From positions 1 through 25,139 of the IMG/VR virus record IMGVR_UViG_3300034105_000083: a stretch of 25,139 nucleotides of DNA. One strand, written 5' to 3'. The notes beneath the pieces are model-generated. The model made no database searches and was not told the DNA's origin. It was given only the letters and a program-made list of their open reading frames with translations. Position numbers and translations under genes: made by a program. Below, one piece after another: positions 11,613-24,934 of this stretch (within the stretch, counting starts at the first letter, position 1; the number at the start of each line of letters is the position of its first letter). This stretch comes from a virus.

Positions 11613-14600
11613 ATGAAATTACCAAGTCCAGATCAAGTATTAGGAAATAAAAATACACTACCTAGCCCAAGTGATGTACTAGGAACAGTAAAAAAAAAAG
11701 TAGCTTCAAAGCCTCGTTCTCAAGAGGAACTGTGGGGATCAGAATCACAACCTCAAGATCTGTATACTTCTTTGGTTACAGGCGCACAGGAACCTCAACA
11801 GGAATCGGATGGTTTAGGTGGGCCGCCTAAAAAGTCAGGAGCAGACAATCGTATATCTCAGAGTTTAAGTAAGATAAATAAAGGTCTTATGAATGACACT
11901 GAGGAAAATGTTGTTGCTCAGTTATCAAAAGATCAAACTTTTAAAAACTTAGGGTTTTCATTTGAAGAGTCAGGATGGAGTGGAGACTATGTTACTGTTA
12001 CTGCTCCTAATAAAAAAACAAAAGAAATTTCATTAGATAATTTTTTAGATAGCAAGTCTGCTGCACAATCAGTAGAACTACAAAACTTTATAAAGCAGAA
12101 CACTACAAAAGAAAAGCGTGCAGAACTTGAACAAATTTCTCAAATAGAAGACTCTAATATTCAAAAACTACAGTCTGAAAAGAAAAAATTTGGGCAAGAA
12201 TTTGATCTAGGACTAGCTAAAGGTTTTGACAAAAAAAACAGTAAATATTTAAACGATAAACTACAAACTGTTAACTCTAAGTTGATCAATCAAAATGAAG
12301 AATATGTTGTTCCTCAAATGAATTATCAGTTTGGAGATTTAGGATTCAAATTTGAAGAGTCAGGAGCCACAGGAGACTGGATGATTGCTACTGCTCCTAA
12401 TGGAAAAAAAATGGAAATTTCTTTAGATCCACTTATGAGCTCTAAAGCAGTTTCTGAATCTGCAAAGTTACAACAATTTATAAGAGATAACACTCCTAAT
12501 AAGGGGTTATATGTTATTGAAAAAACAGCTTCAGATGAAAATCAAAAGATAAACTCTCAAAAAGATGTTGATACATCTATTAAAAGAATATCAGACGAAG
12601 CAAACTCGCTAAACACCGAATTAAAGGCTTTCCTTTCAAGAAAAAATGCGTTAGAAACTACTTTTGAAAAAGGGAGTGAAGGTTATAATCAACTGCAAGC
12701 ACAATTAATTACCGAGAGGGATGCTTTAATTCAAAAACAAAGCAATTTAAAAACAAAAGAGGTTCTTCTAAAAAAATCAGTTGGTAAATATACATCTATG
12801 AAATCTGAACAAGGTACTTGGTTAGCAGGTACTTGGAATGCTTTAATGGACGCCTCTGCTTCAGGAACAGCAGGATTTGTTGATATGATGATTGATATTG
12901 GTGCAGAAATAACACCGAACGAAATGATGATGAGTCCTAAAGATTTAAAAAATAGCTCATTAGGTATTTCAAAAAAATTAGGCATCAAACCTCCGTCAGT
13001 AAGTCAAACATATGCTCAATGGAAAGAATCGTTGACAGAAGACCAAAAAGATTCAGTTGAAGATGAGATGGATGATATTATAAAGAAGAGCATGAAGAAA
13101 GATGCAATTCCTATCATTAGAAAAGGTAATAGAGAAGTTTTTGGAAGCTCTACTGCTACACCTGAATGGGATCAATTAAAATCAGAAGGTTTTTGGGGAG
13201 GTGCTTATCTTGGGCTTGTAAAAACAGCACCTGCACTTATAGGTGGATCTGGACCAGCTGGTTGGGCACAAAGAACAGCTCAGATGTATGCACTTGTTAG
13301 TGATGGAATTAGACAGGAGATGGATAAAAACCCTGAATTTGATAACGTATCTGAAAACCAAAAACTTGCAGTAGTTTTGCCAGTAGGTATTACAGGAGCT
13401 ATATTAGAAGAGTTTGGTTTAAAAAATATAAAAGGAAGTACTGGTTTAATAAATAAAATAGCAATGAGTGCTCTTGGAAAAGCTGGCACACGAACTACTG
13501 CTAAGACATTTAGAGAACTAGTAGAGAATGAAGTTGAAAGTGGTTTAGCTAGAGGACTTCTTACTATTGGATCAGCAGGTCTTGCTGAGTTTGAATCTGG
13601 AGCTCTTCAAACAGCTACTGAATTAGGTATTAAAGAAATTTATAACCAAGTAACAGATAAAAAAATGTTTGAAACTCCTGAAACAATAGGAGAGTGGGTT
13701 AACGACATTGCTATTGCAGGTGCTCAAGAAGCTGTTGGAGGTTTTGTATTAGGTATGCCTACTGCTATAAGTGCTGCTTATTCTGAGAAAGGTTTTTTAA
13801 AAATGAGTGACGATAATTTTAGAATATTTGAAGCTGCTGCAAATGACGATAATATTCAAAAAGCATTTATAACTAATTTAAAAACTCAAATAACTCAAGG
13901 TATAATTACCACTGCTGAGGCTAAAGAACAATTAAACAACTATCGTAATTCAGTTGGTTTGTTTAAATCTTTACCTGAAGGTTTAAATACTCAACAGAAA
14001 AAAGAAGCTATGAATCTTTTAAAAGAAAAGAGAGATTTACAGAATCAAGTTGATGGAAAAGATCCTTCTTTAGTAAAAAAATTAACTGATAGAATAACTG
14101 CTATAGATGCGTCTCTTATATCAATATCTGAATCCACTGTTACAGATGAAAATGCTGCTGAAGCAGTAGAAGAGATAACTCCAGCAGTAGAAGAACCTGC
14201 AGTAAAACCATCAGGGCAGAAGGTAACAGATGTTATAAACAGACCTGCCACCCTTGAGTCACAGGCTGGTGTTAAGCTAGAGACTCCTATCGATGGTGAC
14301 GTGTACCAGGAGGGTCAGAGGGTTATATTCGAGGACAAGAACAAAAAAGTATACGACCTTGGAAATATCGATGAGATATCTGACAAGACCGTAGAGGAAC
14401 TAGGAATTAAGCCACAGGAGGAGATGGTAAGCGTCACTCCAGAGGGTAAGGTTAAGGTAGGAGAGAACGAGTGGAACATGCAGTCTGAGTTGCCTAACTA
14501 TGGTATCGAGTACGACAGCGACGGGAACGTAAAGGCTGTATCCCTAAAGGATGACGCTGGAAAGACCGTGATGTACGAGGGACAGGTTGCTGAAGACGCT

Positions 14601-17600
14601 GCGTATCAGGTCCTACTAAAGCAGACCGAGACACCAGAACAGAGACAAGCTATAAACGAAATATTAGAAAACGATGAAGAACTCAATCGACAACTTAGAG
14701 AGGCTGAAGAAGCTGCCAAAGCAGCAGCAGTTGAAGTTACTGAGCCAGGTGCTCCAAAAACTCAAGCAGAACAGTACTCCGAAGAGCTAGACAAGACCAA
14801 GGAGTCTGATCCAGAGGCCTACTGGTCCGTAAGTCCAGTCTCAGCTGCAGATGCTGCCAAGGGAACTATTATAGATACACCTGATGGTGCAGCTATAGTT
14901 AAGCCTGACGGTGACATCGCTGGTCTGTTCAAGAAGGCCACATCAAAGGCCAAGGGTGTTGCACAGGACCTACTAAAGAGAGCTGTAGCCGCTGGCGGTA
15001 AGAAGCTGGATAATTTTGATGGATACCTAACAAAACAGTACGAGAAGGCTGGATTCAGAATAGTCTCTAGAGTTCCTTTCAATGAGGAGTACGCTCCTCC
15101 AGGATGGAACAAGGAGATACACGGAACACCAGATGTGGTTGCAATGGTCTACGATCCAGAGGGTAAGCTAGACATAGAGGAGAAGACGTTCGACGACTAC
15201 GACGAGGCTATGGCTTACAGAGACTCGCTGCTTGAGCCGTCAATCGATGTGGAGCTTGAGGGCCTAGCAAAGTTATTTGATGAGAGTGACAAGGGCTTTA
15301 GAATATCACAGGTTGACAAGGCCAAGGAGGCTCTAAAGAGAATCCTTCCTGGTGTTGAGTTTATTGTTCACGAGACTAACGAGGCATATAAGAAGGCTAC
15401 AGGAGAGTCAGGTTCTGGTGGTATGTATATATATCGTCCAAAAACAGATAAAAAACCTGCTTCTAGAGTTATACATATAAATAAACAGAAGGCCAACGGT
15501 AGGACTGTTGCTCACGAGGTGTTCCATGCTGTGATCCTAGACAAGATAAAGGGTGACAAGGCCGTTCAGGAGATAACCGCCCGTATGGTTGACGCTGTCT
15601 ACAAGACTGCAAGTCCAGAGCTAAGGGCTGAGCTGGACGCGTTCGCTGCAAGGTACACAGACAAGACTATCAGGGATGAGGAGAGACTTGCAGAGTTAAT
15701 CGGTATCATAGCTGATGGGTATCCAAAGATGTCTCAGATTAACAAGGGTATTGTTAAGAGATGGCTAGAGGCACTGGCTAAGATGTTTGGACGTAAGCCA
15801 TTCACAGACAATGAGGTAATTGATTTGCTCAACACACTAGCTGGAAAGATATCCACTGGTGAGGTTATTAGTGAGGAGGATGTTAAGATTATAAAACCAA
15901 CAAAAGTAGATTCAAAAGGAAACTTACCAGAACCTACTGAAAAATCCAAAAATAATTTAAAAGCAAAAAGATCTCAGTTAACTGATGATACAAAATCAAA
16001 AGTAAAAATAGGAAGTATTGTAAGTACTAGAACTCCTGATACTGAAGGAATACATAAAACTAGTGATAGTATTGTAGATTTAAAATCATTAGAAAAGGAT
16101 GATGCATTAGTTATAAAAATAGCTAAAGAATTATCCAGTTATGGATTATCAAAAATAGAAGAGGTAAATAATATTAATGATGCAAGAAATTTAATACAAG
16201 ACTTTAAAAAATCTGTAAAGGATAATCTTAGGTTTTTACATGATAGTTTTGGAAAAGAAGTAAGAGATGTAGCTAAGTTATGGTATGATGGAGCTAATAA
16301 AATATCTAATGAAATAGCTGATAAATACGATTATTCAACAGATCAAGTTGCAGGAGTAATGGCTGTTCTTAGTCCACAGATGGACTGGTTTAGAAACTTG
16401 TCTCTTGGTAAAAGAGTTATAGATATATATAAAAATCAACAAGATACATTATTTGATTCTAAGATGAAGTCTTGGGTTGAAAATTCATCCAGTGGTACAG
16501 GTAAAAATAAAAAACCTTTACTTCCTGATTCAAAAGATATTATAAAAAGAGTTGATGGCAAAAAATTATCAGAACTTGATATAAAAGATAAGGCAATATT
16601 TATAAGGGCTTATGATGAAATGTATAATTCTAAAAACTATGAAAACATTTCTCCAAATGGAGAGATAAATGGATTAGTTAGAAATAAGAACGGATCTCCT
16701 GGAGCATGTGGATGGGGAGCTTTTCCTACTATAGAAAAATCAATATCTATACTAGAGGATGGATCTATAGAAAATATATCTAAAAATCTTGGAAATATGC
16801 ACAAGGTTAGAAACTTTTTCAATAATATATCTAATCCTAACGATCCTAATGCAGTAACTATAGATACACATGCTGTGGCTGCTGGATTATTATTGCCATT
16901 ATCTGGATCATCAAAAGAAGTATTATATAATTTTGGAGGAGCATCTAGTAAGTCAACTGGATCCAAAGGTTCTTATGCTGTATATGCAGATGCTTATAGA
17001 GAACTTGCTAAAGAACTAAAAATACTTCCTAGAGAATTACAATCTATAACATGGGAGGCTGTTAGAGGTTTATTTAAAGCTGATTTTAAAGCAAATAAAT
17101 CAAATGAGGAGAATGTAAAAAAAGTATGGTCTAAGTATAAAAATGGAGAGATAAGTATTGATAAGGCTCATTCAGATATTAATGATTTGGCTGGAGGAAT
17201 TAGTAAACCAGTATGGTATGAATATGTTGCTGATGATAATGTAAAATCATTAGATGAAAATTCAGCAGCTATGGATCAGGCAAATGAAGATTTATCAGAA
17301 CCAACAACTATAAAACGCTCACAGTTAACAGATGATGGAGTAACTATAAATGCTAAGAGCAATACATCTTACACTGTAACTGACAACGGAAATGTTGTAG
17401 GCAGTATGCAACTTACTAGTAATAAGGAACTTGGAAAAGGGTACCTGTCTGTAGATTTATCTAAACTTAACGAGAAGTATATTGGTAAAGGGATTGGATT
17501 GGAACTATATAGAACTGTTGCTAATAAACTTAAAGATAAGGGAATAGTTCTTACGTCTTCTATGTTCAGAAACGAGAAGTCAGACAGGGTTTGGAAGTCA

Positions 17601-20600
17601 CTAGAGAAGTCTGGTGAGGCTGTTGAAATATATAGTGATCCAAAACTAAAGAGAACTGTATACGCACTTGTTAATCCAGAGGTTAGAAGATCACAGAAGG
17701 TAGAGTGGGAGGAATCTAAGTTAGGAAAGGGTGACAAGGCTATAACAGATAGACAGCCAGTACTTCAGAATGCTGCTGAGAGGTACGCAAACAAGGAGAT
17801 AAGTTACGAAGAGTACCTAAAGATCAAGGATGTAACAAGTCCTATCAAGCCTATAACTGACTTTATAGAGCCAGCTAAGGAGGAGGATATTAGGTTTGCA
17901 GTTGGTATAAATGCAGAGGGAAAGACTAACTTGAAATTTGATAAGGGAACACTTCTTGGTCTTAGACTAGATATAAATGCATACATAAATAAGAATATAT
18001 GGGCTATAACAATACATGCGCCAGGTAAAGGAAAGGTGCTATCTTATAATAATGTAGCTAGACTAAAGAATGTAACATTTGGATCTAATGCTAAGGACGC
18101 ACTAAACATAGCAAGACACAAGATAAACAAGGCTACTATTGCTAGGATGCATGGAGAGTGGATACCTATAGAGGGAAATACTAGCGAGGAGAAGGGTAAG
18201 AGCGCTATGAAGTTTGTTGAGTCTATCGTTAATAATCCAGAGTGGTCTCAGGTTGGAATGAACCCGTTCAGACACTCATGGTTCTATGACAGAGCTGACG
18301 GTAAACCAGTTCTTGCTGCTGATGAACTTATCCAGATTGGTGGTCTAGTGTATGCAAAGAATGTAGTGAAGACTACACCATACGACAAGGCGTTTGAGTT
18401 CTTGGATCAGGAGGGAGACGTTATGAGATTCCAAGAAGCTAAAGGAATAGACGAGATTGTTAGGATAGCCAAGGAGGCAAAGTACTCTGACGCTGCTATA
18501 TCCGCATTCCTTAAGGCTAAGGGCTTCTCTGATGCAGAGATAACTAGTGCTCTTGCTACTGATAGACCATCTGTAAATAAGATATACGAAGACAGTAAGA
18601 AGGCTATAGATGACAAGAAAAGAAGGGTATCTATAAAGGATCTTGCTCCGTTCCTTAGGAAGTCACTTCTTGACAGACAGGCTTACATAAAGAGAGTAAT
18701 AAACAGGATAGACAACAAGTCTGCTAAGAAGGCTTACGACCTACTTGTAACAAAGGCTGGGGCATCTGCACTTGCATCTGAAAGATTTAAGCGTGCAGAG
18801 AAGAAGATATACGGAGGACTAAGTTCTGAGGATGTGAGCACACTTGACAAGATTATATATGCCAAGAGGATGGTTGCAGTTAACGAGAGCAGAGCCAAGC
18901 TAGGTCTTGAACCATACAAGGGTATGGACGGGTACTCGATAGATGATGCCAATAGAGATCTTGCAGACTTTAAGAACTCGCTAGGAGATAAGAAATTCAA
19001 TGATCTGAGTAACAGAGCTACGGAATACTTTGATGTATTTAAGTTAAACCTTAAGAAGCTGTACGAGTCTGGTAGAATTAGTGAGGAGACCTATGAGTCT
19101 CTAAAGGATACCGAGTACTCTCCAATAAAAACCATCAAGTACATCATAGGTGACAACCTAAGCGTTGACGAGATAGACACCCAGGCAAAGTCATTGGGTA
19201 TATCTAGAAACGATATAATGAAGTTGTCTGACAACAATGAGAACGAAATAATATTGGACTCTAAGTGGCTTCTTGCTATGAGTATAAATAGCGTAGAGGG
19301 TAGAGCATTTGAGAACAACATGCTGAGAGAGTTTGACAAGGCCATAAAGGAAGCAACTCCAGAGGAGAAGAAGGCATTTGAGGATATAATACTTGACAAC
19401 CCAGTTGTAGGTACTAAGAAGGATGGTGGTTTGAAGTACAAGTACGACGACACTAGGTTGCCAGTTGGATACACTAAGGTGTCATACTTCAATGACGGTA
19501 ACAAGGTGGAGATTGTACTTAAGGATCAGTACGCAAAGCAACTTCTTGACGTAAAGAATAAGAACAAGGCACTAGAGACACTAGGTAAACTAACTGGAAC
19601 TAAGATACTTAGATTCTTTGCTACTGGTGGAAACCCGTTGTTTATTATTGGTAACACCGCTGTCGATTTCCAGAACATCGCGTTCTTCTCTGACGTGTAC
19701 TCTAAGTTCAAGCCTATGGCCACAGCTCAGTTGGCCAGAGACTATACCAAGAACTTTGTAAAGAAACTGTTTGTCTCTAACGAGTACAACAAGATATTTA
19801 ACGAGTACATAAACCACGGTGGTGCGTTAGACTATATGGCCAGTGATGGTCTTAGATCTCTAGAGTCAATGAACCCAGTTAAGGGGGTTACCAAGGCAGT
19901 TCAGAAGGGTCTTATTGCGTACGGAAGGGCTATGTCATTACTTGGTGAGACATCAGAGGTTGCGTTTAGACTGTCTGTGTTCCAGAAGGTTAAGGAGGAC
20001 TCTATAAAAGAGTTTAAGAAAGAGAACAACAGAGAACCAAACGCGCAGGAGCTTGATGACATCATGTGGAACGCTGGAAGACAGTCTAGAGAGACTATGG
20101 ACTTTAGTCAGGGAGGCGATGTAGCTAAGAACATAGATGCTGTGTTCCCTTACTTTAACGCTGCGCTTCAGGGTATAAGAAGACCAATAGACTTTGCTAA
20201 GAAGGATCCTGTTGGGTTCTCAAGCAGCGTGCTTCAGTACACGGTTATGGCCTCAAGTTTAGCAGCTGGTTCGTTCGCAATGCTTATAAATGCAGTAGGT
20301 GGTGATGATGACGAGGACAGAACTAAAAAGATAATGGACGCTATGAACTCTTTGAGTGAGTACGAGAAGGCCAACTACCATATCATGTTCACTGGTGAGA
20401 AAAATAAGGATGGTGAGTACGAGTACTATAGAGTTAAAAAACTTCCAGTACTATCTGTCATCAGTACAGTTGCAGAGCAGCTAATATATAAGGAGTTCTT
20501 TAATTCTAAGGGTATAGATTACGACATGGACTCTAAGGTTATGCTAGAGGCAGTCAACAAATCAAATCCTTTACCAGTCACTGTTCAGGAGGTAGCTGGT

Positions 20601-21395
20601 AAGAACCCTGTAGCGTCTGGTCTTGTTAGTTACTGGGCAAACAAGGACACGTTCACTGGAGATAAGATCTTCAGAGAGCCTGACAACAAAAAAATATTAC
20701 CAGAGGCAGAGGGGATGTTTGATGACAGAGTTGATCAGATATACAAGGACCTGGCTCCTGGATTTGGATTGTCACCAGCTAGAACTAAGGTTATGGTAGA
20801 GAAGGTTATAACAAGTGCGAACACTAACCCTACAATTCCTTTGATATACTCTGCGTATGATGGACTGTTCAATAAGAGTGACGGACTAGGTTCTGAGGTT
20901 AAGGAGGCGATGTCAGGTGTTGGTGATGCCTTCGGAAAGAAGGTTGTAAGGTACACTGACAAGAAAATTATAAGGTATAAGGATCAAGACGAGAAAGAGT
21001 ACCAGGAGAGCGTATTAGAGACTAAGGTATGGAATAGCGAGCAGAAGGTCTACAACGAGATAAAGAAGAAGTACGATGGAGGAGGTAATCTAACAAATAA
21101 GGAGCTTATTGATCTTGTAAAAGAAAACTTCGAGCCTATGGACTATAGGAAGTATGCTAAAAAATATAACGCATACATACACAATATGAACATAGACAAG
21201 TCTGTTCTAGACATTATATTCGAAGATGTTCCAGAGGTACAGGCTATGAAGTTAAATCAGAGGTACGGACCTAACTTAGAGGGTGAGGAGTTGAAGGAGT
21301 TGGGAAGAGCTATGAACTCAGCTGGTAAGAGGATAAATAACAAGTCTATCTATATATACAATAAAAAATATAAGAACAGAAAGAACGCCCAGTAA
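11613..21395 (+). CDS. Giant polyvalent virion protein with metallopeptidase, GNAT and LPD38-like regions
   Basis: 3260 residues. In order: LPSPxxVLG twice (3-11, 16-24); a duplicated 55-residue unit (110-164, 240-294); charged helices; an Ala/Gly-rich helical region (about 520-730); an acidic linker (about 850-870); a region with GDIAGLFK, LDNFDGYL and GFRIVSR (about 1070-1200); a metallopeptidase with HEVFH at 1301-1305 and a likely third ligand in ERLAELIG (1357-1364); a domain with VMAVLSPQMDW and TIDTH (about 1490-1880); a GNAT domain with IGKGIG at 1957-1962; a block with NPFRHSWFYDR (about 2215); and an LPD38-like region with GGNPLFIIGN (2672-2681) and MDFSQGG, followed by a hydrophobic stretch (about 2869-2895). 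Such multi-domain proteins are known as phage polyvalent proteins, ejected with DNA to act on the host. That role is inferred. KRSQ/RRSQ linkers occur at 1452, 1901 and 2025. No DxDGD RNA polymerase motif was seen. The stop codon lies in the terminator loop. Confidence 0.8.
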   Translation: MKLPSPDQVLGNKNTLPSPSDVLGTVKKKVASKPRSQEELWGSESQPQDLYTSLVTGAQEPQQESDGLGGPPKKSGADNRISQSLSKINKGLMNDTEENVVAQLSKDQTFKNLGFSFEESGWSGDYVTVTAPNKKTKEISLDNFLDSKSAAQSVELQNFIKQNTTKEKRAELEQISQIEDSNIQKLQSEKKKFGQEFDLGLAKGFDKKNSKYLNDKLQTVNSKLINQNEEYVVPQMNYQFGDLGFKFEESGATGDWMIATAPNGKKMEISLDPLMSSKAVSESAKLQQFIRDNTPNKGLYVIEKTASDENQKINSQKDVDTSIKRISDEANSLNTELKAFLSRKNALETTFEKGSEGYNQLQAQLITERDALIQKQSNLKTKEVLLKKSVGKYTSMKSEQGTWLAGTWNALMDASASGTAGFVDMMIDIGAEITPNEMMMSPKDLKNSSLGISKKLGIKPPSVSQTYAQWKESLTEDQKDSVEDEMDDIIKKSMKKDAIPIIRKGNREVFGSSTATPEWDQLKSEGFWGGAYLGLVKTAPALIGGSGPAGWAQRTAQMYALVSDGIRQEMDKNPEFDNVSENQKLAVVLPVGITGAILEEFGLKNIKGSTGLINKIAMSALGKAGTRTTAKTFRELVENEVESGLARGLLTIGSAGLAEFESGALQTATELGIKEIYNQVTDKKMFETPETIGEWVNDIAIAGAQEAVGGFVLGMPTAISAAYSEKGFLKMSDDNFRIFEAAANDDNIQKAFITNLKTQITQGIITTAEAKEQLNNYRNSVGLFKSLPEGLNTQQKKEAMNLLKEKRDLQNQVDGKDPSLVKKLTDRITAIDASLISISESTVTDENAAEAVEEITPAVEEPAVKPSGQKVTDVINRPATLESQAGVKLETPIDGDVYQEGQRVIFEDKNKKVYDLGNIDEISDKTVEELGIKPQEEMVSVTPEGKVKVGENEWNMQSELPNYGIEYDSDGNVKAVSLKDDAGKTVMYEGQVAEDAAYQVLLKQTETPEQRQAINEILENDEELNRQLREAEEAAKAAAVEVTEPGAPKTQAEQYSEELDKTKESDPEAYWSVSPVSAADAAKGTIIDTPDGAAIVKPDGDIAGLFKKATSKAKGVAQDLLKRAVAAGGKKLDNFDGYLTKQYEKAGFRIVSRVPFNEEYAPPGWNKEIHGTPDVVAMVYDPEGKLDIEEKTFDDYDEAMAYRDSLLEPSIDVELEGLAKLFDESDKGFRISQVDKAKEALKRILPGVEFIVHETNEAYKKATGESGSGGMYIYRPKTDKKPASRVIHINKQKANGRTVAHEVFHAVILDKIKGDKAVQEITARMVDAVYKTASPELRAELDAFAARYTDKTIRDEERLAELIGIIADGYPKMSQINKGIVKRWLEALAKMFGRKPFTDNEVIDLLNTLAGKISTGEVISEEDVKIIKPTKVDSKGNLPEPTEKSKNNLKAKRSQLTDDTKSKVKIGSIVSTRTPDTEGIHKTSDSIVDLKSLEKDDALVIKIAKELSSYGLSKIEEVNNINDARNLIQDFKKSVKDNLRFLHDSFGKEVRDVAKLWYDGANKISNEIADKYDYSTDQVAGVMAVLSPQMDWFRNLSLGKRVIDIYKNQQDTLFDSKMKSWVENSSSGTGKNKKPLLPDSKDIIKRVDGKKLSELDIKDKAIFIRAYDEMYNSKNYENISPNGEINGLVRNKNGSPGACGWGAFPTIEKSISILEDGSIENISKNLGNMHKVRNFFNNISNPNDPNAVTIDTHAVAAGLLLPLSGSSKEVLYNFGGASSKSTGSKGSYAVYADAYRELAKELKILPRELQSITWEAVRGLFKADFKANKSNEENVKKVWSKYKNGEISIDKAHSDINDLAGGISKPVWYEYVADDNVKSLDENSAAMDQANEDLSEPTTIKRSQLTDDGVTINAKSNTSYTVTDNGNVVGSMQLTSNKELGKGYLSVDLSKLNEKYIGKGIGLELYRTVANKLKDKGIVLTSSMFRNEKSDRVWKSLEKSGEAVEIYSDPKLKRTVYALVNPEVRRSQKVEWEESKLGKGDKAITDRQPVLQNAAERYANKEISYEEYLKIKDVTSPIKPITDFIEPAKEEDIRFAVGINAEGKTNLKFDKGTLLGLRLDINAYINKNIWAITIHAPGKGKVLSYNNVARLKNVTFGSNAKDALNIARHKINKATIARMHGEWIPIEGNTSEEKGKSAMKFVESIVNNPEWSQVGMNPFRHSWFYDRADGKPVLAADELIQIGGLVYAKNVVKTTPYDKAFEFLDQEGDVMRFQEAKGIDEIVRIAKEAKYSDAAISAFLKAKGFSDAEITSALATDRPSVNKIYEDSKKAIDDKKRRVSIKDLAPFLRKSLLDRQAYIKRVINRIDNKSAKKAYDLLVTKAGASALASERFKRAEKKIYGGLSSEDVSTLDKIIYAKRMVAVNESRAKLGLEPYKGMDGYSIDDANRDLADFKNSLGDKKFNDLSNRATEYFDVFKLNLKKLYESGRISEETYESLKDTEYSPIKTIKYIIGDNLSVDEIDTQAKSLGISRNDIMKLSDNNENEIILDSKWLLAMSINSVEGRAFENNMLREFDKAIKEATPEEKKAFEDIILDNPVVGTKKDGGLKYKYDDTRLPVGYTKVSYFNDGNKVEIVLKDQYAKQLLDVKNKNKALETLGKLTGTKILRFFATGGNPLFIIGNTAVDFQNIAFFSDVYSKFKPMATAQLARDYTKNFVKKLFVSNEYNKIFNEYINHGGALDYMASDGLRSLESMNPVKGVTKAVQKGLIAYGRAMSLLGETSEVAFRLSVFQKVKEDSIKEFKKENNREPNAQELDDIMWNAGRQSRETMDFSQGGDVAKNIDAVFPYFNAALQGIRRPIDFAKKDPVGFSSSVLQYTVMASSLAAGSFAMLINAVGGDDDEDRTKKIMDAMNSLSEYEKANYHIMFTGEKNKDGEYEYYRVKKLPVLSVISTVAEQLIYKEFFNSKGIDYDMDSKVMLEAVNKSNPLPVTVQEVAGKNPVASGLVSYWANKDTFTGDKIFREPDNKKILPEAEGMFDDRVDQIYKDLAPGFGLSPARTKVMVEKVITSANTNPTIPLIYSAYDGLFNKSDGLGSEVKEAMSGVGDAFGKKVVRYTDKKIIRYKDQDEKEYQESVLETKVWNSEQKVYNEIKKKYDGGGNLTNKELIDLVKENFEPMDYRKYAKKYNAYIHNMNIDKSVLDIIFEDVPEVQAMKLNQRYGPNLEGEELKELGRAMNSAGKRINNKSIYIYNKKYKNRKNAQ
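11940..12104 (+). repeat. Tandem protein repeat, unit A (55 codons)
   Basis: Codons 110-164 of the polyvalent gene. They align without a gap to unit B at 12330-12494; I count 30 of 55 identical residues, including LGF-F-EESG, TAPN, EISLD and the ending NT. Confidence 0.85.
12330..12494 (+). repeat. Tandem protein repeat, unit B (55 codons)
   Basis: Codons 240-294 of the polyvalent gene, 130 codons after unit A. It shares the GD-aromatic, TAPN, EISLD and SK-x-x-S pattern. The function of the repeated domain is unknown. Confidence 0.85.
15966..15989 (+). repeat. KRSQLTDD linker repeat, copy 1
   Basis: Codons 1452-1459 of the polyvalent gene encode KRSQLTDD. At DNA level 20 of 24 bases match copy 2 at 17313-17336. 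It lies between the metallopeptidase and the TIDTH domain, near the left edge of an AT-rich segment. Confidence 0.8.
17313..17336 (+). repeat. KRSQLTDD linker repeat, copy 2
   Basis: Codons 1901-1908 again encode KRSQLTDD, between the TIDTH domain and the GNAT domain and close to the right edge of the AT-rich segment. A third, shorter RRSQ (codons 2025-2028, 17685-17696) follows the GNAT domain. Confidence 0.8.
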
Positions 21396-22085: not shown

Positions 22086-22381
22086 TTTCCAAAGTATTTA
22101 AAGTGGTTTAAACAAGCAAAGAATGTTTCTAGTTCGTCTGTATGAAGTTCAATTCTCTTACTCTCCCACCTTCCTTTACTGACTTCACTTTCGAAACTTA
22201 TATCATAGCCCTCTCCATTTGCCCACTGAGTTAATTTACAGAAGGACTTTTTCATTCCATCAATCTCGTACTCAACAGTCTTTCCTTCACCAAATAGCTT
22301 TGGCATGTAGTACTCTTCCTCAATGGCTTCTTCATTTTGTTTTACAAGAAACCTACCGATCTTACTTAATAATTTTTTCAT
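22082..22381 (-). CDS. Small phage protein of unknown function
   Basis: 99 residues, with a Lys-rich N-terminal helix (MKKLLSKIGRFLVKQ), an acidic stretch, then a compact region KLTQWANGEGYDISFESEV and ESKRIELHTDELETFFACLN. The NGEGYDI and ELHTDELETFFACL elements look like a small alpha/beta domain. No known motif was recognised. It is joined to both neighbours by ATGA overlaps (22378-22381 upstream, 22082-22085 downstream), so it belongs to the co-translated set of accessory genes in this operon. Confidence 0.7.
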   Translation of the reverse strand: MKKLLSKIGRFLVKQNEEAIEEEYYMPKLFGEGKTVEYEIDGMKKSFCKLTQWANGEGYDISFESEVSKGRWESKRIELHTDELETFFACLNHFKYFGK

Positions 22382-22620
22382 TCTATCAATTTATCAATGT
22401 TAATATTATGTTCCTCAAGTATCTCTCCAATTCCATTAGCCATGAACTGGATGCCGTCAAATATGTCAGCGGTGTTATAGGCTATGTTCTCGCACTGTCT
22501 CTCTACCTTCTTACGAAGTTGTAGTATATCAAACAATGCACAGGCCATATCAAATGACTTTATAGACCTGTAGAACTCCATCTGTTGTTCTGGTAGTTTA
22601 AACTCTAGCTTTGCTTTCAT
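22378..22620 (-). CDS. Small conserved phage protein, LEFKLPEQQ type
   Basis: 80 residues, largely helical: MKAKLEFKLPEQQMEFYRSI, then ACALFDILQLRKKVERQ and a C-terminal GEILEEHNINIDKLIE. Short proteins with an N-terminal LEF-LPED/EQ strand, an ALW/ALF-x-IxQ-LR helix and an LxEHxI end are widespread in phages; I know of no established function. The ATG overlaps the stop of the GIY-YIG gene by ATGA (22617-22620). If the homing cassette is a later arrival, this gene was originally coupled in the same way to the phosphoesterase gene. Confidence 0.75.
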   Translation of the reverse strand: MKAKLEFKLPEQQMEFYRSIKSFDMACALFDILQLRKKVERQCENIAYNTADIFDGIQFMANGIGEILEEHNINIDKLIE

Positions 22621-22667
22621 AACGTGGTGTACTTATTATTAATGATGTGCTGTGACTTTCCGTTAGG
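22617..22667 (-). repeat. Duplicated coding tail, copy at the end of the homing endonuclease gene
   Basis: Encodes PNGKSQHIINNKYTTL plus stop, with codons AAC, AAG, CAG, CAC, TAC and ACC resembling the phosphoesterase gene. It ends TTATGA, overlapping the next ATG. It is probably the original 3' end of the phosphoesterase gene. Confidence 0.8.
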
Positions 22668-23372
22668 GTTATAATTTTCTAAATACATTATTCCATACTT
22701 ATATATTTTTTTATTTATATCAGATTTCAATGTATTTCTATTTACGCTTATTTTTAAAGATGCATCTCTTATGTTTACATATTTCTCATGTGTTTTAATA
22801 TTTATACAAATTTTGTTTTTACTTTTATCATATGAATTATTTATATTAAACATATCTTGATTGTACTTCCCTATTGGTTTATTTAAATCATCTATATATA
22901 CATACGGAGTTTTATTTTTAGACGCTCCTCTTAACCTAGTTTTCATTGACGCATATATTAAACTATTTATTTTACAACAATCAACTAAAGAGATATATAT
23001 CTCTCTTGTATCCATATTCATTACGCGTTTTGACATATGAGATTTTACTCCAGATCTATTTTTTAAAGATTCAAAAGAAGGATTAAAAACACCATCTCCA
23101 CCATCAGTCATATTAACTAGACAACCATTACCTAAATCTTTTCTACCATACTCTTTTATTAAGAAAATTTCTAATTCAATTGCGTCTTCTTCAGAAAGAT
23201 TTTTAGATACTATATCTACACTATATCCATACTTACTAACAGTATTTAGCCAATAATTATTTCTATATCTATTAGAAAATGCGCGTCTAAAATTATTTTC
23301 TTTACCCATTCCTATATAAAAAACATCATTTGTATCTAATTTATAGTGTCTATATACGTAGTATGGTGTCAT
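22617..23372 (-). CDS. GIY-YIG homing endonuclease with two NUMOD-like repeats and a captured C-terminal tail
   Basis: 251 residues. The nuclease domain has YVYRH (5-9) and FYIGMG (18-23) as the GIY and YIG motifs, Arg 29/30 as probable catalytic Arg, a Glu in ELEIFLIKEYG (66-76), and Asn 87 in LVNMTDGGDG. Two NUMOD-like DNA-binding repeats follow: about 115-160 (RVMNMDTREIYISLVDCCKI) and 186-232 (KICINIKTHEKYVNIRDASL). This is the make-up of phage homing endonucleases that cut an allele lacking the gene. Residues 236-251 (PNGKSQHIINNKYTTL) lie beyond the last repeat and copy the end of the upstream phosphoesterase. The gene is much more AT-rich than its neighbours except in this tail. Start and stop are both in ATGA overlaps (23369-23372 and 22617-22620). 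Confidence 0.9.
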   Translation of the reverse strand: MTPYYVYRHYKLDTNDVFYIGMGKENNFRRAFSNRYRNNYWLNTVSKYGYSVDIVSKNLSEEDAIELEIFLIKEYGRKDLGNGCLVNMTDGGDGVFNPSFESLKNRSGVKSHMSKRVMNMDTREIYISLVDCCKINSLIYASMKTRLRGASKNKTPYVYIDDLNKPIGKYNQDMFNINNSYDKSKNKICINIKTHEKYVNIRDASLKISVNRNTLKSDINKKIYKYGIMYLENYNPNGKSQHIINNKYTTL

Positions 23373-23425
23373 AGCGTTGTATATTTATTATTTATTATAT
23401 GGATATGTTGATGTTTTCCATTAGG
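23369..23425 (-). repeat. Duplicated coding tail, copy at the end of the phosphoesterase gene
   Basis: Encodes PNGKHQHIHIINNKYTTL plus stop, with A/T-ending codons (AAT, AAA, CAT, CAA, TAT, ACA). It carries two additional residues (HI) relative to the other copy. It ends CTATGA, overlapping the ATG of the homing endonuclease. It is probably a recoded replacement tail supplied by the cassette. Confidence 0.8.
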
Positions 23426-24934
23426 AAATATAACTATATTACTGTGTAGCCACGAACTGAGCCCACGATTATACCCAACCCTTAGGTGTGTTAATGTACC
23501 TACAGATGAGTGACCATCAAGCCTAATTGGTGAATGAGTGTGACCAGTTATGTTTTTAGTATTCATATCTTTAAACTGTATAGCCGATCCTCTGCTACCG
23601 TTAGTTCCTATGTGTCCGTGTACACCGCACTCTATGTTAGCAACCCTGAAACTTTCATCTATACCTAGGCAGTTCACGTTTGTAACTTGGTACTTGTTCA
23701 GTATTGCAGGTATGATACCCTTACCAATTGTATCATTCTTAAGTACATGCGCCAGCTCCAGGTAGGTACTCTTGTTGGTACTCTTTCTCCAGTCCACGTC
23801 GTTAAGCCACCTATCAAGGAACTCGTCGTGGTTACTCCTGACCATCACAAAGTTAAAGTCTGAGTACCTGTCAAAGAACGCGGCCATGTTGTTTAGCTCC
23901 AGCATAAGGTCACCAGAACCGTCCTCCTCCCTGGCCATCACCTGGAATGGTTGGTTACGCTCGTGGTGTGATATGGAGTGCCCGTTGAACACGTCGTGTA
24001 GTACTATATCCTCACAGTTCAGGTTCTCAGCCATCCTGAATGAGACATCAAGAACGTCGTCGTTAGTCTCACCAAGGTGTAGGTCACCAAACACCATAAC
24101 AGTCTTGCTTGTCTCACGTATGGATCCAGCTATTACATTGTAGTGCAGGTCATAGAACGACCCGTCTTCGTCAGCAGTGACCTGTCTGATATGGAAGTCG
24201 TCATCGTCCAGCTCTATGATAACAAATCCTAGCGTGTGGTGGAACTCACCCTTCTTGCCAGACTTGGTGTCAGTGTAGTTCTGTAGCGATATGGCTCCTG
24301 TAGTCACCAACAGCTTGTGAGGGTAACCGTCAAGTATTGGCAGTGACTTAAGGTGTACCCTAGGGTGCCCAACGACGCAACTTTCAAGCCCTGTGAGGCC
24401 GTTAATCCCAGAAAGAGGAGTAGATGCTGTCGGTTGAATTTTAAGGTCTGAGAGGATGCACAAGTGCTTGTGTACCTTGTGCCTGTTTGCGTCCAGGTAC
24501 TTCTCTACCCTTGGCGACCACGAGTTCCTCTCCTCCTTCTCCTTGACCCTCTTGCTTGAGTTAAGTGATGTAGGGTTCTTGTACCTTCCAGCTATTATGG
24601 ATATCTCTGCGTCTATCTCTTTGGCGTACGCCTCTATGTTTGTAAGGAACTGCTCGTGTATCTCTGTGTCAGACTGACACCATGACACTATAAACCTCTG
24701 CTTGGTCTTGTCGAGCTCCCTCTTCTGGGCCTCTAGGAACATGTCCGACTCTGGCAGTTCTTTATTATCGGTTACTCCTGTCCTCTCTAGGTGCTTAGAC
24801 ATTGTCCTACGAACCTGATCCTCGTAAGGGATGCCGAACTCAATGCACGCCATCTTTGTGGCGTGTGTAATGTTATGACCTAGAGACAAGGCTGTCTCTA
24901 TATACTGCTTAAACTCTTCTGAATACTTTCCCAT
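23369..24934 (-). CDS. Calcineurin-like metallophosphoesterase, resembling phage T5 A1 DNA transfer protein
   Basis: 521 residues. The metallophosphoesterase motifs are in order: GDLHLG (283-288), HDVFNGHS (313-320), RSNHDEF (366-372), GVHGHIG (437-443) and GHTHSP (464-469), which supply the Asp, His and Asn ligands of a two-metal centre. The first 60 residues look helix-turn-helix-like. The long middle region with LPILDGYPHKLLVTTGAISL resembles phage proteins annotated as T5 A1-like; T5 A1 takes part in host DNA degradation and second-step DNA transfer. Whether this protein does so is an inference, and another nuclease or phosphatase role is possible. Residues 504-521 (PNGKHQHIHIINNKYTTL) match the end of the following endonuclease. 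The ATG overlaps the stop of the preceding gene as TAATG. Confidence 0.8.
   Translation of the reverse strand: MGKYSEEFKQYIETALSLGHNITHATKMACIEFGIPYEDQVRRTMSKHLERTGVTDNKELPESDMFLEAQKRELDKTKQRFIVSWCQSDTEIHEQFLTNIEAYAKEIDAEISIIAGRYKNPTSLNSSKRVKEKEERNSWSPRVEKYLDANRHKVHKHLCILSDLKIQPTASTPLSGINGLTGLESCVVGHPRVHLKSLPILDGYPHKLLVTTGAISLQNYTDTKSGKKGEFHHTLGFVIIELDDDDFHIRQVTADEDGSFYDLHYNVIAGSIRETSKTVMVFGDLHLGETNDDVLDVSFRMAENLNCEDIVLHDVFNGHSISHHERNQPFQVMAREEDGSGDLMLELNNMAAFFDRYSDFNFVMVRSNHDEFLDRWLNDVDWRKSTNKSTYLELAHVLKNDTIGKGIIPAILNKYQVTNVNCLGIDESFRVANIECGVHGHIGTNGSRGSAIQFKDMNTKNITGHTHSPIRLDGHSSVGTLTHLRVGYNRGLSSWLHSNIVIFPNGKHQHIHIINNKYTTL

Follow-up and report, generated by a model that had tools for sequence, protein, structure and literature searches.

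Introduction

The closest described counterparts of the locus analyzed here are the WHO elements of yeasts (Torulaspora/Lachancea, FBA1). The mobile unit of these elements consists of an endonuclease gene and the 3' end of the upstream host gene; upon homing, the recipient's host gene receives a new 3' end, and a fragment with its former 3' end now follows the endonuclease gene, where it has been proposed to serve as a second homology region (PMC7282813). Allele-specific cleavage has been demonstrated for WHO6/FBA1 (PMC7282813). Similar rearrangements are found in mobile ORFs of fungal mitochondria (Allomyces macrogynus atp6; Glomus sp. atp6, atp9, cox2, and nad3), where a foreign C-terminal end takes the place of the native one, which is shifted downstream and agrees with that of close relatives; in the atp9 case, the endonuclease is of the GIY-YIG type (PMC3630166).

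In phages, free-standing homing endonucleases (T4 Seg/Mob; Aeh1 mobE in nrdA) are of the GIY-YIG or HNH type, several overlap the upstream stop codon, and their flanks are co-converted between coinfecting phages; however, a replaced host 3' end together with a displaced native tail is not described for them (PMC2988022). The T4 types lie between genes, while Aeh1 mobE splits its host gene (PMC2988022), both unlike the present locus. Another unorthodox insertion without an intron or intein is the ShiLan domain, an HNH insertion in a phage methylase, but there the endonuclease is encoded out of frame inside the host ORF, and no tail is replaced (PMC11855218).

Here we analyze a viral locus that is probably a phage homing element of the WHO type. 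It shares with the WHO elements a chimeric host gene, a foreign and presumably resistant 3' end, and the old end left behind the endonuclease gene; the tandem clusters that WHO elements form by repeated events (PMC7282813) we count as a further likeness. The WHO elements differ in residing in a nuclear yeast genome, in encoding an HO/intein-type LAGLIDADG endonuclease with a zinc finger, and in having 3' parts of ~400 bp and a fragment that need not keep the reading frame (PMC7282813), whereas the phage element encodes a GIY-YIG protein with NUMOD1-like repeats, and its tail of 51–57 bp is fused in frame and holds the start of the next gene. The fungal ORFs differ in residing in mtDNA, and their described features do not include a displaced C-terminus joined to the endonuclease frame (PMC3630166).

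Host gene and endonuclease

The window is the whole analyzed stretch of viral DNA, 25,139 nucleotides in length; loci collected for comparison are denoted by L with a number. The genes of interest are the following:

23369..24934, minus strand: T5 A1-like DNA transfer protein gene (the host gene, A1), metallophosphoesterase-like, 521 aa, PHROG 1745
22617..23372, minus strand: GIY-YIG homing endonuclease gene, 251 aa, its start overlapping the A1 stop (ATGA)
23088..23372, minus strand: GIY-YIG nuclease domain, residues ~1–95 (pLDDT mostly 84–97 over residues 1–80; Foldseek matches)
22680..23033, minus strand: two NUMOD1-like DNA-binding repeats, residues ~114–160 and ~188–231 (strand-helix-helix-strand in the model)
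22378..22620, minus strand: native downstream gene, 80 aa, with 100% amino acid identity to the L001 gene, its start overlapping the stop carried by the endonuclease gene's tail

The host gene belongs to the family PHROG 1745, "DNA transfer protein" (E = 5.8e-146). The nearest cultured phages are Flavobacterium elemo phages, whose homologues carry an A1-like annotation. The structural model of A1 has a terminal hairpin (strands 498–502 and 508–512, with PNGK at the turn) whose last strand is provided by the tail, hence A1 very likely needs its tail.

The endonuclease has the GIY-YIG fold. The YVY..YIG, R, E, and N motifs are conserved across 16 homologues, and the best solved neighbors of the AF2 model are the GIY-YIG nucleases PD-T4-3 and UvrC, with weak but consistent E-values of 0.003–0.1. 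The Pfam search did not reach the GIY-YIG model itself, and the sequence search of PDB yielded no match. The homologue in L008 matches PHROG 314, homing endonuclease, and, weakly, NUMOD1 (E = 0.013). Among cellular genomes, one partial relative was found, and it is uninformative.

Two other assignments were rejected. Membership in the WHO sequence family (HO-like LAGLIDADG proteins with a zinc finger) is ruled out by the GIY-YIG fold. A group I intron or an intein does not fit, as the A1 ORF is complete without any removal, and the endonuclease gene lies after the A1 stop codon. Elsewhere in the window, the plus strand carries a single 3260-aa ORF (11613–21395) with a match to DUF7178 and a weak acetyltransferase-like stretch.

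Two copies of the gene end

One and the same tail is present in two copies, as the last 18 codons of A1 (tail 1) and as the final 16 of the GIY-YIG gene (tail 2):

23369..23425, minus strand: tail 1, foreign A1 tail, PNGKHQHIHIINNKYTTL and stop
22617..22667, minus strand: tail 2, native A1 tail as an in-frame extension of the GIY-YIG gene, PNGKSQHIINNKYTTL and stop
22646..22647, minus strand: site of a 6-nt deletion relative to the native tails (GTACAC lost, between CAC repeats), from the tail alignment

GC3 equals 0.55 in the A1 body and 0.11 in the A1 tail, and, conversely, 0.15 in the body of the GIY-YIG gene and 0.56 in its tail. The values for bodies and tails are crossed, hence the swap of codon style between the tails, which an earlier note on this DNA had reported with exact coordinates and sequences, is real.

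Tail 2 agrees with the native tails of the endonuclease-free relatives L001, L002, and L004 in 50 of 51 bases, aside from the 6-base deletion, whereas tail 1 agrees with the A1 tails of the same relatives in just 40–42 of 57 positions. Hence, tail 2 is the A1 tail that this lineage had before, now displaced; as in the WHO elements, the native 3' end is found directly behind the endonuclease gene and matches element-free relatives. Judging by its sequence, tail 1 appears to be the copy that travels with the GIY-YIG gene. Its best match is tail 1 of L008 (51/57), while all other A1 tails reach at most 46/57. The results bear out the earlier note in several respects: the tail of the endonuclease is the displaced native one, that of A1 is foreign, the endonuclease-free relatives carry the predicted tail at the DNA level, and the AT-rich A1 tail is absent from the endonuclease-free relatives (best 46/57). 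Neither is the tail a normal part of this GIY-YIG family, as among the best 80 relatives only the L008 homologue has it, likewise at A1.

Due to the in-frame fusion, tail 2 retains the ATGA stop/start overlap with the downstream gene, which may preserve translational coupling. In the predicted structure of the endonuclease, the tail 2 region (residues 234–251) has pLDDT <50 and is predicted to be unstructured behind a complete nuclease. At 22617–22620, tail 2 runs straight into the 80-aa gene; a 28–31-aa ORF of the MKYLLVLMAYEF type, located directly behind A1 in L001–L004, is absent from the window.

Mosaic structure of A1

Upstream of tail 1, the A1 gene of the window falls into two parts:

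23627..24934, minus strand: native A1 part, codons 1 to ~436, with ~95% nucleotide identity to the L001/L002/L004 lineage
23426..23626, minus strand: imported A1 tract, codons ~437–503, L005-like, a co-conversion tract by informative sites, tree, and identity drop

Informative sites were defined as positions where L001, L002, and L004 agree and L005 differs. In codons 1–425, 417 such sites are L001-like and 5 are L005-like, versus 11 and 31, respectively, in codons 437–502 (Fisher p = 7e-34). Identity to L001/L002/L004 falls to about 65–66% after codon ~436. The tree of the A1 body places the window inside the L001 clade (support 100), and the tree of codons 437–502 makes it a sister of L005 (SH-aLRT 95). 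A grouping of the window with the L001-type sequences is not rejected by the AU test on this short, 198-nt tract (p = 0.129), although the site counts disagree with that placement.

As a control, the identity drop in codons 437–502 relative to the nearest body relative was calculated for 28 A1 loci. The window shows the largest drop, 0.30 (from about 0.95 to 0.66), followed by L030 (0.09, with L018 as the partner) and L032 (0.08), both with an endonuclease gene behind A1; in the remaining loci the drop does not exceed 0.06. No such drop is seen in L008, hence only the tail itself looks foreign there.

By sequence, A1 of the window looks like three pieces, i.e., a native body, an L005-like stretch, and the element's own tail. 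As in the WHO elements, the host gene is chimeric, with its own 5' part and, next to the endonuclease gene, a foreign 3' end. The foreign part comprises ~85 codons (~437–521) rather than 16–18, diverges throughout, and resembles other natural alleles. Therefore the "recoding" of 16 codons, as the earlier note had it, has to be abandoned in favor of imported allelic divergence.

Empty and occupied sites in related phages

Element-free alleles, characteristic of WHO-type systems, are found in close relatives, namely in L001–L004 and in L014/L046. A1 without the GIY-YIG gene is present in the viral contigs L001–L004 (A1 86–95% identical to that of the window) and in the more distant L005 (67%), the A1 tail being PNGKSQHVHIINNKYTTL; the GIY-YIG gene was not found anywhere in the records of L001, L002, L004, and L005. 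In L001–L004, at least one small ORF lies between the A1 tail and the downstream gene, and the small ORFs behind A1 differ among close relatives.

The second occupied site is L008. Its GIY-YIG gene, 67% identical to that of the window over the full length, is flanked by A1 and a 95-aa gene; it ends with IFPNGKHQHIHIINNKYTTL, its own copy of the A1 tail. The sisters of L008, L014 and L046, lack the GIY-YIG gene, and their A1 tail leads through ATGA directly to the 95-aa gene. The prediction of a direct ATGA junction at the empty site thus holds for L014/L046 as compared to L008, but fails for the closest relatives of the window, L001–L004, due to the intervening small ORFs. A1 of L008 is L014-like up to codon 502, and its tail 1 agrees with tail 1 of the window in 51 of 57 positions versus 45 of 57 for the L014 tail. 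Tail 2 of L008 has 49 of 57 positions in common with the L014 tail, and just as many with either copy of tail 1, hence the similarity does not single out a native origin. The presumed donor, an L005-like A1 with the GIY-YIG gene, was not found in IMG/VR, and a search with L005-like and L008-like A1 yielded no further occupied sites.

Different small ORFs behind A1 in L001 (6655–6834), L004 (2701–2904), and L005 (6903–7355) have a common C-terminal motif, WFEQFKKK / ETFKKK. Possibly, these ORFs form a small paralogous family, or the motif is another sequence repeated at gene ends.

Other genes at A1 3' ends and specificity of tail copies

In L032, A1 is followed by a different GIY-YIG gene, belonging to the intron endonuclease family TIGR01453 (group I) with NUMOD3. 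Here, a displaced A1 tail of 24 bases, AACAACAAATACACAACGATATGA (NNKYTTI), is located at the endonuclease stop, before the next gene and out of frame; hence, the fusion (and the kept overlap) is not essential. In L030 (5072–5611), an HNH/NUMOD4 endonuclease gene lies between A1 and the MSKAVI gene, and the A1 lineage shifts at codon ~471 (Fisher p = 2.7e-6).

We scanned both strands of the collected loci (3.6 Mb) with 24-nt A1 tails, considering sites outside A1. Matches of at least 21/24 are the ends of the GIY-YIG genes in the window (24) and L008 (23), the last 24 nt of the 95-aa gene in L014 (22) and L008 (21), and the L032 remnant (21), over a background maximum of 20/24. Among 11,510 ORF ends, the GIY-YIG genes of the window and L008 score 29/30 and 28/30, respectively, and none exceeds 21/30 apart from A1 and the known tail copies. 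At the protein level, no copy of the upstream-gene tail was found in ~57 other testable GIY-A-type loci or in 28 GIY-B-type loci outside L032; the L032 copy is too short for this test and was found by sequence reading and the 24-nt DNA scan. As these loci lack tail copies, the feature is peculiar to the 3' end of A1 and does not characterize phage GIY-YIG genes in general.

The 95-aa gene behind A1 (MISSE...) is not a nuclease gene; in L014 (5333–5362) and L008 (5017–5049), it ends with VIDNKYTTL and ATGA. From the similarity to A1 tails, this end is possibly an older tail capture, giving a tandem array A1–GIY–MISSE in L008.

These data also bear on the alternatives. An ordinary free-standing homing endonuclease might have co-converted A1 in the normal way, with the tail duplication being a one-off by-product of sloppy repair that has no role in mobility. 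Such co-conversion is the rule with the homing endonucleases of T4 (PMC2988022); the right junction is indeed sloppy, with the 6-nt deletion in the window, and differs from that of L008; most phage GIY-YIG genes have no tail copies, and neither do the distant A1 loci L075, L076, L080, and L083, where yet another GIY-YIG gene lies ~55 bp after A1. However, a chance by-product is not expected to recur at one and the same place, whereas the duplication recurs with the 67% identical GIY-YIG gene of the distant L008 and with a different GIY-YIG gene in L032, so we consider this explanation unlikely. It is highly improbable that the 16-residue tail is a selected functional part of the endonuclease, e.g., one contacting some partner of A1, rather than a relic or homology arm: the tail is absent from GIY-YIG homologues, is predicted to be disordered, has lost two residues in the window, and by its near identity to native A1 DNA is a recent capture, even though its frame is intact in the window and L008, and tail 2 of L008 differs from the L014 tail mostly by synonymous changes. 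Least probable is an assembly artefact or a chimera of two phage populations, a thought prompted by the lineage switch within a gene of a metagenomic contig, as L008, a separate contig, provides a second, diverged case whose sisters have the matching empty site, the ORFs are intact and joined through ATGA on either side, and the downstream gene is native.

Other gene ends in the collected loci may be of interest. In L075, L077, L080, and L082, the RNase HII gene behind A1 apparently starts frame-shifted (RWAEGRGCLSG versus VDEVGRGCLSG in L084 and others), and in L075/L080 a GIY-YIG gene is inserted immediately before it. In L009/L104, L190–L195, L197, and L198, GIY-YIG genes are repeatedly located at the 3' ends of seemingly structural genes ending with ...LTT/LTS or overlap these ends, which suggests a general preference of these GIY-YIG genes for gene ends.

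Proposed homing mechanism

The mosaic A1, the displaced native tail, the foreign new tail, the empty-site relatives, and the second occupied lineage together are best explained by a WHO-type homing element, with the A1 3' end and the GIY-YIG gene as the mobile unit. We infer the following course of events. Two related phages would meet in one cell, and in the native-type A1 allele the endonuclease would make a cut close to the conserved 3' end, to be repaired with the element-bearing genome as the template. On the left side, recombination would extend back into A1, in this case to codon ~436, so that the recipient A1 gains the divergent, presumably cleavage-resistant 3' end of the donor and keeps its function. 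On the right side, the tail copy at the 3' end of the GIY-YIG gene would be the only homology, and recombination there would join the GIY-YIG frame to the old tail of the recipient, which retains the ATGA overlap with the downstream gene.

Two details of this scheme deserve mention. As the small ORFs behind A1 vary, dependable homology on that side would be offered only by the tail copy that the element brings along, i.e., tail 2 may act as a homology arm. The cleavage site would have to be split or damaged in tail 2, at the junction at codon ~503 or by the loss of GTACAC, as the element would otherwise cut its own genome.

Replacement and capture of the host gene's 3' end, the core of the earlier interpretation, therefore stand, while recoding and the lack of a precedent do not. 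That no such case had been described is wrong in general, given the yeast WHO elements (PMC7282813) and the fungal mitochondrial ORFs, including the GIY-YIG one in atp9 (PMC3630166). The mechanism is not categorically new, and the present locus seems to be a variant of WHO-type homing that is new for phages; no earlier description from a phage was found in the open-access papers searched, by a search that was not complete and is no proof of absence.

Tentatively, the observations could be extended to a broader picture, in which A1 3' ends are a recurrent docking site for WHO-type elements with at least three nucleases (GIY-YIG/NUMOD1-like, GIY-YIG/NUMOD3, and HNH), and the same exchange also captured the 95-aa non-nuclease gene (DNKYTTL–ATGA); this is possible, although we would not yet lean toward it. 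If true, tail capture would be a route for phages to add tandem genes behind an essential gene without damage.

More generally, our findings suggest that phages, too, have come to use the unorthodox homing known from yeast WHO elements and fungal mitochondrial ORFs, with other nucleases. By supplying a divergent working end and displacing the old one, a selfish gene can occupy the conserved terminus of an essential gene and need no splicing device. Immunity by allelic divergence becomes testable here in a simple phage cross, and in essential phage genes the history of the 3' end can differ from that of the remainder of the gene.
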